NCBI RefSeq assembly: GCF_002214805.1
Contig: NZ_CP019914.1
Coordinates: 2,852,001-2,916,000 of the forward strand
DNA length: 64,000 nt
Reading direction: 5' to 3'
Source of the DNA: Brachyspira hampsonii
GTDB lineage: Bacteria; Spirochaetota; Brachyspiria; Brachyspirales; Brachyspiraceae
The notes below the pieces were generated by a model, which worked only from the letters and a program-made list of their open reading frames with translations, was not told the origin of the DNA and searched no databases. Position numbers and translations under genes: made by a program. Positions 46,370-48,603 of the stretch are shown here, piece after piece (position 1 is the first letter of the stretch; every line of letters begins with the position of its first letter).

Positions 46370-46612
46370 TTATTTATAAAAATAGTAATTACTAGAAACT
46401 TGCACATTATACCAAAGCTGCCATTCGCCAATTTTTATAATGCTTTCTTGGTATCTTCTCATTAAATCTTGTCTGTTTGTAACAGCTTTTATAATAAATA
46501 TTTCTGGAGGCGTAGAAAGCGGTACTTTCACATATTTTATTTTTGTACTGCATGAAGTTAATATCATTAAAATACTTATAAAAATTATTAGATATATTAT
46601 TAAATGTTTCAT
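46370..46612 (-). CDS. Outer-membrane spanin (Rz1-like lipoprotein)
   Basis: 80 residues. Signal 'IIYLIIFISILMILTSC' ends in a lipobox with Cys at ~21, followed by a short tail with 'KVPLSTPPE', the Pro-containing stretch common in Rz1-type o-spanins. About 84% of the gene lies inside the 46407-46913 gene in another frame, the embedded arrangement of lambda-type Rz/Rz1. It would join the inner-membrane partner to fuse the membranes at lysis. AAGGAC precedes the ATG. Confidence 0.7.
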   Translation of the reverse strand: MKHLIIYLIIFISILMILTSCSTKIKYVKVPLSTPPEIFIIKAVTNRQDLMRRYQESIIKIGEWQLWYNVQVSSNYYFYK

Positions 46613-46913
46613 TCTCTGTCCTTGTCAGCAATTCTTCATCTATATTTTTAATCATAATACTAGAATTACTAAAACTATTTTGAAACTTCTCATTTTCTTT
46701 AATAAAAAGTATCTCATTTTGAAGCGTTTGATTATTAAGCTCCAATCCCTTAATATCTTCCTGATACTGTGCAATCTCTTTTTCCTTTTTATGTATTTCA
46801 CTGTCTTTAAAAGCTATTAATACTATAAAAACAGCAACAAACAAAACTATTGCAAGAACTATAAATATTCTTTTATCTAGTTTAGATAAAAAGCCCGTTA
46901 TTATTGGAATCAT
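46407..46913 (-). CDS. Inner-membrane spanin (Rz-like)
   Basis: 168 residues with AGGAG before the ATG. One N-terminal membrane segment 'IFIVLAIVLFVAVFIVLIAF' is followed by a coiled coil (residues ~40-75) rich in Glu, Lys and Gln, and a periplasmic tail. The lipoprotein reading frame overlaps its 3' half. Its neighbours are the holin candidate and endolysin, so the four form a lysis cassette. The sequence is not alignable by eye to lambda Rz; the call rests on topology and the overlap. The extra length after the coiled coil may simply be forced by the overlapping gene. Confidence 0.7.
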   Translation of the reverse strand: MIPIITGFLSKLDKRIFIVLAIVLFVAVFIVLIAFKDSEIHKKEKEIAQYQEDIKGLELNNQTLQNEILFIKENEKFQNSFSNSSIMIKNIDEELLTRTENETFNNISNNFYKYFNDINFMQYKNKICESTAFYASRNIYYKSCYKQTRFNEKIPRKHYKNWRMAALV

Positions 46914-47177: not shown

Positions 47178-48008
47178 TTATCTAACTCCATTATATTTTA
47201 AATTGTCATGAAATATACCTAAAAGAAACTTTTGCAAATATTCGAGATTTTCTAAAACTATCTCACTGTCTTTGATAGTTGTTTCAGTAAAATTATTATT
47301 AATAAATACATCATAGCTTTTTAACCTGTCAGCAGCAGGAATATTTTTAAGATTTTTCATAAATGCTTTACGTTTGTCATATTGTGCTTGATGATTATTA
47401 TAAATTGACTTATAAATATCCTCTATTTTATCTAAAATAATCATATAATAAAAATTACATATATTTTCTAAACCTAGCTTATTTATACTCATAATGCTGC
47501 TTTTAGATAAAGCCTCATTATATATATTAATAATTTCTATTCTTTTTGCTTTTATATATTCCCTAAGCTCTGCTTTATCTTTATCAAGTATATGATTATG
47601 TACTATATAGCTTATTATTTGACTTTGCACTTTTAATGTACTTTGACTTATGATACTGCTGTATTCTTTATAAACTGTAAGCGATGTAATTTTCTCATCA
47701 TATTTAAACTTATTTTCATCATCTTTATTATCGCCATGATAATAAGCTAATATTTCGCTGTTGTTTTTAGATTCTAATACAGATAACTCCTTTGGGTGTT
47801 CAAATGCATTAGATACAATTTTATTTTGATTTTCTATAGTTTTTTCTGTATTAACCTTATCATTTCCAAACTCTATAGTACCGTCTTTAATATTTGCTTT
47901 TAATTTAGCTTGCTTATTATGCAAAATAAGATCCTTAACCCATTTTCCAATTATGAGTATAGTTATACAAATACCTATTATAGATAAAGCCATTAATGCA
48001 TCAGACAT
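47178..48008 (-). CDS. Membrane-anchored phage protein of unknown role
   Basis: 276 residues with GAGGAT before the ATG. One N-terminal membrane segment ('MALSIIGICITILIIG') precedes a mainly helical, charged domain. It overlaps the endolysin stop region by 8 bases and touches the holin candidate gene, so it belongs to the lysis group. No motif recognised. Confidence 0.55.
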   Translation of the reverse strand: MSDALMALSIIGICITILIIGKWVKDLILHNKQAKLKANIKDGTIEFGNDKVNTEKTIENQNKIVSNAFEHPKELSVLESKNNSEILAYYHGDNKDDENKFKYDEKITSLTVYKEYSSIISQSTLKVQSQIISYIVHNHILDKDKAELREYIKAKRIEIINIYNEALSKSSIMSINKLGLENICNFYYMIILDKIEDIYKSIYNNHQAQYDKRKAFMKNLKNIPAADRLKSYDVFINNNFTETTIKDSEIVLENLEYLQKFLLGIFHDNLKYNGVR

Positions 48009-48603
48009 TTTTATCCTCTAGTATTTTTAATATATTTTCATATCTTTCTTCTCTGTCTTCAAGTCCATTGTATCCGCCGTTAATAAGTTTAGTAACTCCT
48101 TTCACATCGCCTTGACGGGCAAGTAAACCGCAGCCTTTCTCCTTCCAAAATAATAATGCAATCTCTATAGCATTATTAGGCTCTTTGGCAAGGTCTGGAT
48201 TATTAACTAAGTCAGCATTTATTTTTTTACTATATTTTTTATAATTATTTTTTCCAGTAAGCTGAATAATGCCTCTGCCTCTATATTTATAGCCTTCGTC
48301 TTCTGTATTACCTAAACGACCGCCATAAACAAAGTTGCCAATAGCCTCAGCTCCCTTACTACATAACTTTTTAGCATTTTCCAAACTTCCAACTCTTTTT
48401 TTAAATACATCAAAAAGCCTTTGCGGAGTGTATCTGAAGCTCTCTTCAAGTCTTTTATAATTATTGCTTTCATGAGTTGTTTGTGCCAAGAACATAGAAG
48501 CTTCTTTTATGTCTGTAATACCATGTTTTTGAAAAGCATTATTTAATGGTAAAAGCCATTTCTTATTTATACCGATTTTATTTAATGTATTTTCATTTAG
48601 CAT
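48001..48603 (-). CDS. GH19 endolysin
   Basis: 200 residues, glycoside hydrolase family 19 fold. 'MFLAQTTHESNNYKRLEESF' holds the catalytic Glu, 'YKYRGRGIIQLTGKNNYKKY' is the GH19 signature region and 'VTKLINGGYNGLEDR' the C-terminal substrate loop. It cleaves peptidoglycan at lysis. There is no signal peptide, so export depends on a holin. GAGG precedes the ATG. Confidence 0.93.
   Translation of the reverse strand: MLNENTLNKIGINKKWLLPLNNAFQKHGITDIKEASMFLAQTTHESNNYKRLEESFRYTPQRLFDVFKKRVGSLENAKKLCSKGAEAIGNFVYGGRLGNTEDEGYKYRGRGIIQLTGKNNYKKYSKKINADLVNNPDLAKEPNNAIEIALLFWKEKGCGLLARQGDVKGVTKLINGGYNGLEDREERYENILKILEDKNV

Follow-up and report, generated by a model that had tools for sequence, protein, structure and literature searches.

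A candidate two-component spanin of overlapped type in a Brachyspira hampsonii prophage, with relatives across the genus

In phage lambda, lysis proceeds from the holin through the endolysin to the spanin complex, which acts last and on the outer membrane (PMC5295617, PMC6139136). A published scheme distinguishes 'embedded' spanin genes, as in lambda, from 'overlapped' ones, as in P2, and in the same survey a periplasmic cysteine is present in at least one partner in 507 of 528 spanin pairs and absent in 21 (PMC6139136). Single families can take different architectures, both overlapped and separated, as described for DFL12phi1/EE36P1, T5/Shivani and Jersey/FSL_SP-031, where the o-spanin is conserved and the i-spanin diverges in its overlapped C-terminus (PMC6139136). 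Among spirochaete phages, predicted spanins near an M23 peptidase have already been published for transposable prophages of Leptospira (PMC8705779). No paper on Brachyspira spanins was found in the literature searched.

Here we describe a gene pair in a prophage of Brachyspira hampsonii. The window (the whole stretch of 64,000 nucleotides that was analysed) spans positions 2852001–2916000 of a 3.19-Mb single-contig genome. As an earlier note on this DNA had claimed, a one-helix protein (168 residues) and a lipoprotein (80 residues) are encoded there in overlapping, different frames, with the lipoprotein gene in the +1 frame of its partner (Table 1). We conclude that the two are very probably a two-component spanin of the overlapped type, which would disrupt the outer membrane at lysis, and we refer to them as the i-spanin and the o-spanin. 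The earlier description of the pair as 'embedded' was wrong because the o-spanin gene runs 37 nt past the i-spanin stop, rather than lying wholly inside the i-spanin gene; the architecture is overlapped and P2-like. The proposed Rz/Rz1 design is thus borne out as a two-component pair within a Brachyspira prophage lysis cassette, with both frames conserved, but not as an embedded one.

Table 1. Features of the lysis cassette in the window (positions are those of the window).
Feature	Position	Strand	Basis
o-spanin gene	46370..46612	-	ORF; lipobox and conserved columns; AlphaFold2; intact in 35 of 37 loci
i-spanin gene	46407..46913	-	ORF; hydropathy; AlphaFold2; PHROG 739 'Rz-like spanin' (E 3e-4); conserved core
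Overlap of the two genes, 206 nt, o-spanin in the +1 frame of the i-spanin	46407..46612	-	
Poorly predicted i-spanin tail, residues 118–168	46410..46562	-	pLDDT below 50; alignment
AAGGA, Shine-Dalgarno-like site of the o-spanin, within the i-spanin gene	46619..46623	-	Sequence; 25 of 25 long-overlap loci
Two-TM holin-like ORF, 86 aa	46917..47177	-	Hydropathy; related ORFs (cluster c5) in 24 of 37 loci
276-aa ORF with one N-terminal TM	47178..48008	-	ORF; hydropathy
GH19 endolysin	48001..48603	-	PF00182 (1.4e-10); phrog_181 endolysin (7.7e-67)

The i-spanin has a single transmembrane segment by hydropathy (residues 16–34), and AlphaFold2 predicts helices at residues 14–94 and 98–117 with a mean pLDDT of 62.8, falling below 50 from residue 118 to the end. 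An N-terminal membrane segment followed by a helical domain that would be periplasmic, given the orientation assumed, is what is expected of an i-spanin. In the alignment, the core up to about residue 117 is common to all architecture types and carries an F-x-N-S motif, while the tail of residues 118–168 is restricted to the long-overlap type and missing where there is little or no overlap. The o-spanin begins with a signal peptide (residues 1–20) and a lipobox, L-T-S-C, with Cys21 predicted to be lipidated. Its model (mean pLDDT 77.8) consists of the signal helix, an extended stretch from 20 to 46 and a helix from 47 to 75 that contains Trp64 and Trp67, with a conserved Pro35-Pro36 lying between the lipid anchor and this C-terminal helix. 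The lipoprotein had been described earlier as having a proline-containing tail; the lipobox and the Pro-Pro are indeed present, but the prolines belong to the linker, not the tail. Besides the start, the residues invariant in 21 aligned rows are Cys21, Pro36, Tyr54, Lys60, Ile61, Trp64, Gln65, Trp67 and Tyr68, and the mature length is 53–68 aa, so the o-proteins combine a lipobox with a short periplasmic domain.

Neither protein matched a curated family above threshold, the Pfam scores of both included, and their nearest matches among phage records were insignificant; close relatives of the o-spanin among named records are from Brachyspira. Weak matches to PHROG models named 'Rz-like spanin' were obtained with 8 of 12 i-proteins (PHROG 739, best 2.9e-4) and 8 of 12 o-proteins (PHROG 456, best 5.6e-4), although for some i-proteins unrelated coiled-coil families score as high or higher (the tape measure model phrog_9959, at 2.4e-5) and the match of the window o-protein is confined to the signal peptide and the residues just after it. 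The likeness to P2 LysB/LysC extends to the overlapped genes, an o-spanin gene that continues past the i-spanin stop, the pairing of a transmembrane protein with a lipoprotein and the position after the endolysin, but P2 LysC has several conserved cysteines whereas the Brachyspira o-spanins mostly have none besides the lipidated one. A shared lipobox and a TN-x-DL-like motif had suggested homology to LysC, which was not supported: hhalign gave a probability of 7.8 against six LysC sequences, with the lipobox alone in common, and 1.2 against LysB. As described, lambda Rz/Rz1 resemble the pair in topology, cassette position and the presence of a proline motif and tryptophan in the o-protein, but the Rz1 gene is contained entirely in that of Rz and its 40 aa include 10 Pro, compared with an overrunning gene and one conserved Pro-Pro here (PMC6139136, PMC5295617). 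Because the spanin matches are weak and nothing beyond the lipobox is shared with LysB/LysC, we file the pair as a two-component spanin by anatomy and as a family of its own by sequence.

The adjoining holin and GH19 endolysin reported in the earlier note were recovered as a two-TM holin-like ORF, for which family searches gave no convincing match, and an endolysin recognised by both Pfam and PHROG; with the 276-aa ORF, both precede the pair in the order of transcription. At other loci the place of the 276-aa ORF is taken by an ORF of about 150 aa with a C-terminal TM (for example L003, reverse complement 914–1363). These two types of post-endolysin gene look unrelated and are swapped between otherwise similar cassettes.

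Relatives of the pair are widespread. Among the 26 genomes of the genus, single-sequence searches detected the i-spanin in 22 and the o-spanin in 23; a profile built from 12 o-spanins, run on 31 genomes of the class, detected the o-spanin in 25 (23/26 in the genus, 2/3 in two other genera of the family and 0/2 in another family). At the three loci from these two further genera (L159–L161), the o-profile scores 37–77 bits and the i-profile matches the ORF upstream of each o-spanin with 39–46 bits. One of these o-spanin frames (L159, 8181–8690) runs on into a phage antirepressor KilAC domain (PF03374, 3.7e-9). A GH19 endolysin is encoded in 22 of the 26 genus genomes, together with an o-spanin in 21; both are missing in two (G001, G003), the o-spanin occurs without it in G019 and G024, and the single genome with the endolysin and no o-spanin (G020) has a contig ending inside the i-spanin.

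Thirty-seven loci, comprising 36 fetched stretches chosen for an o- or i-spanin match and the window, were compared. An intact o-spanin is present in 35, an i-spanin in 35 and both in 33, the o-spanin being broken in L107 and L109. A search of other Brachyspira prophages, as suggested earlier, returned the pair in most genomes, with an i-spanin upstream of 33 of the 35 intact o-spanins; the two exceptions (L117, L120) are on contigs that start 373 and 706 nt before the o-spanin. A further o-profile match in L114 (3589–3777, E 1.5e-4) was dropped by a stricter cut as an unrelated lipoprotein. At L028/L060 (G004:C14) a spanin fragment is in frame with another ORF, which we take to be restriction-specificity-like, beside unusual sequence and with further pieces of the pair elsewhere on the contig, an arrangement that is perhaps a misassembly. 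The B. hampsonii genome itself carries a second prophage copy (i-spanin 91% and o-spanin 100% identical to the window pair) and a third o-spanin more distant from that of the window. Across residues 1–36, the window i-spanin and that of the other prophage (L002) differ in their TM regions while the remainders are nearly identical, which suggests recombination within the i-spanin gene.

The two genes are adjacent or overlap within the lysis cassette, though in three loci 604–774 nt lie between them. Gaps measure 774, 738, 604 and 210 nt and then 35 to 2 nt, and overlaps 4, 14, 59–62 and 206 or 239 nt; for L104 and L106 the choice of start is uncertain. The longest gaps (L098, L100, L112) contain one or two inserted small ORFs. 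In a tree built from 180 columns of 33 pairs, loci that overlap by at least 59 nt form one side of a split with 98% ultrafast bootstrap, and the long-overlap prophage type is a single clade at 100%; because rooting was by midpoint only, the tree does not prove that separated genes came before overlapped ones. The family thus resembles those of DFL12phi1/EE36P1, T5/Shivani and Jersey/FSL_SP-031 in spanning architectures and in the better conservation of the o-spanin, but it belongs to other hosts, covers a wider range of distances and includes a cluster like that of a gene transfer agent. The Leptospira spanins, compared by description, share a spirochaete host and differ in phage and endolysin (PMC8705779).

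This range of architectures bears on whether the lipoprotein ORF could be a chance frame inside a membrane-protein gene. Overlapping ORFs are common and Pfam recognises neither protein, but non-overlapping homologues refute this reading, since the lipoprotein is also found at many loci where gaps of 2 to 774 nt separate the genes. It is moreover the more conserved frame: mean amino acid identity among 13 distinct sequences is 0.886 in the o-frame, whereas the i-frame reaches 0.731 within the overlap and 0.842 over the 60 codons that precede it, and the columns that vary by o-codon position number 14, 12 and 42 of 70 (21 long-overlap loci without a second insert, 14 distinct sequences). The lipoprotein frame therefore dominates the overlap. 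The earlier note had regarded as fatal a lipoprotein frame left unconserved where the overlapping gene is conserved; the reverse is found. All 25 long-overlap loci, with 10 distinct upstream 15-mers between them, have an AAGGA 5 or 6 nt before the o-spanin ATG. In the i-frame it draws on AGG, the codon for 10% of Arg, or AAG, the codon for 13% of Lys. Many non-overlapping loci have no Shine-Dalgarno-like site under the scoring rule applied. A chance ORF can accordingly be set aside as extremely improbable.

The converse question concerns the i-spanin tail. When synonymous codons were redrawn with the o-protein held constant, the i-frame of the window stayed open this far in 0.2% of draws. In five long-overlap loci the i-frame is open for 68 or 79 codons through the o-gene, which 0.015–0.23% of 20,000 synonymous draws each reproduced, and at the remaining 30 loci this frame reaches a stop after 2–36 codons. 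At 12 o-codon sites a third-position T would create an i-frame stop, and there T occupies 0 of 129 cells (51.3 expected), compared with 255 of 516 (230.7 expected) at 44 other sites. Since the sequences are related, cells cannot be counted as independent; with each site taken as one draw, the avoidance has p 5e-4. The i-frame is thus kept open through the o-gene although the sequence drifts, and selection acts on both frames. The tail might nevertheless have no function as protein, its frame being open because, for example, the read-through is too recent to have met a stop, or because a ribosome stop close to where the o-spanin begins is avoided. Its pLDDT below 50, the existence of homologues without it and the similar variation of third positions in overlapping o-codons and in the i-core (0.247 and 0.231 differences per site) all fit this reading, to which we give a substantial, though lesser, chance. 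On the other side, 42 of the 70 third positions have varied without once placing a T before AA, AG or GA, and five loci carry inserts whose lengths divide by three and leave both frames open. We favour the view that in this prophage lineage the i-spanin frame was probably extended across the o-spanin gene, giving the long tail.

These inserts, of 54 and of 78, 84 or 87 nt, lie in or just before the overlap and carry internal palindromes (L012, L013, L011, L027, L030). We considered dispersed palindromic elements and rejected them: in DNA searches of the 26 genomes each insert was found in only four genomes and only at spanin loci, and so we treat them as local indels. In L012 and L027 the second insert supplies a further start codon (ATG) with a lipoprotein signal after it, and a 42-aa ORF just downstream (L012 2181–2309; L027, reverse complement, 2127–2255) repeats the C-terminal end of the o-spanin and is perhaps a duplication remnant.

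The Brachyspira gene transfer agent (GTA) VSH-1 lyses its producers on induction. Its proteins include Hvp101, Hvp45, Hvp38, Hvp53 and others, the numbers in these names being masses. In the published order lys follows hvp101 (PMC4603578), and the available text of the accounts examined names an endolysin or lysin but no spanin (PMC9662315, PMC4603578, PMC2897892, PMC3163572, PMC8845278). Eighteen of the 37 loci, one per genome, are GTA-like. A protein of 676–912 aa, the size of Hvp101, is encoded upstream of lys in 16 of them (90–99 kDa in the five weighed), and in the remaining two (L097, L119) the contigs begin too late to show it. Downstream of the cassette, 13 have chemoreceptor genes (MCPsignal, 4e-45, in the one locus scanned) and five, which are B. 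pilosicoli-type loci, have phage-like genes of GTA size, with products of 46, 38, 13, 39, 12, 15, 21, 10 and 52 kDa in the one locus weighed. One of the 18 (L109) has a broken o-spanin. The order of the genes and the sizes of their products point to VSH-1-like clusters, and the pair is apparently part of the lysis cassette of a VSH-1-like GTA; in VSH-1 (BhGTA), lys would be followed by what appear to be the same small genes. Literature searches, including the available text of PMC13236601, found no report of a spanin in a GTA. In prophage pP1 the locus number of a homologue of VSH-1 'OrfG' differs by two from that of lys (PMC2897892); this numbering fits the i-spanin but would also fit the holin-like gene if pP1 carries one, and we do not equate OrfG with the i-spanin.

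The cassette order of endolysin, small membrane ORFs, i-spanin and o-spanin is identical in prophage and GTA-like loci. This fixed place directly after the endolysin and holin-like genes speaks against the alternative that the two are late-expressed envelope proteins serving a different purpose, for instance in superinfection exclusion or in timing lysis, as do the Rz/Rz1 topology of both partners and the persistence of the pair beside a different endolysin, a GH108 enzyme (PF05838, 8e-17), in L116, one of two cassettes in G019. In favour of that alternative, the i-protein has one weak match to a superinfection-exclusion model (phrog_8545, 0.018), and 17 of 33 Brachyspira pairs have no periplasmic cysteine besides the lipidated one, although the window pair has two, both in the i-spanin tail. 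What the sequences show is the structure of the genes, their signals and co-occurrence, their position in the cassette and selection on both frames; localisation, complex formation and membrane disruption we infer by analogy with described spanins. On balance we consider another envelope function unlikely and retain the two-component spanin.

As spanins, the two proteins would be expected to work as follows. The i-spanin would be anchored in the inner membrane by its N-terminal segment, with its helix projecting into the periplasm, and the lipidated o-spanin would sit in the outer membrane, carrying its Pro-Pro-containing linker and the C-terminal helix with two tryptophans; the two would presumably pair through their C-terminal parts. 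If lysis follows lambda, the holin would open the inner membrane and the endolysin would remove the peptidoglycan, whereupon the freed spanin complex would disrupt the outer membrane, probably through fusion of the two membranes, as proposed for lambda.

The pair offers a concrete candidate for the disruption of the outer membrane by spirochaete phages. Most Brachyspira species have relatives of it in prophages and, apparently, in their gene transfer agent. The apparent presence in a GTA and the range of architectures go beyond the earlier note. With overlaps graded within one family, ideas on how overlapping genes arise can be tested directly, and pairs of which half have no periplasmic cysteine test how far spanins in general require a disulfide. 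For VSH-1, the pair is a candidate for the last step of lysis.
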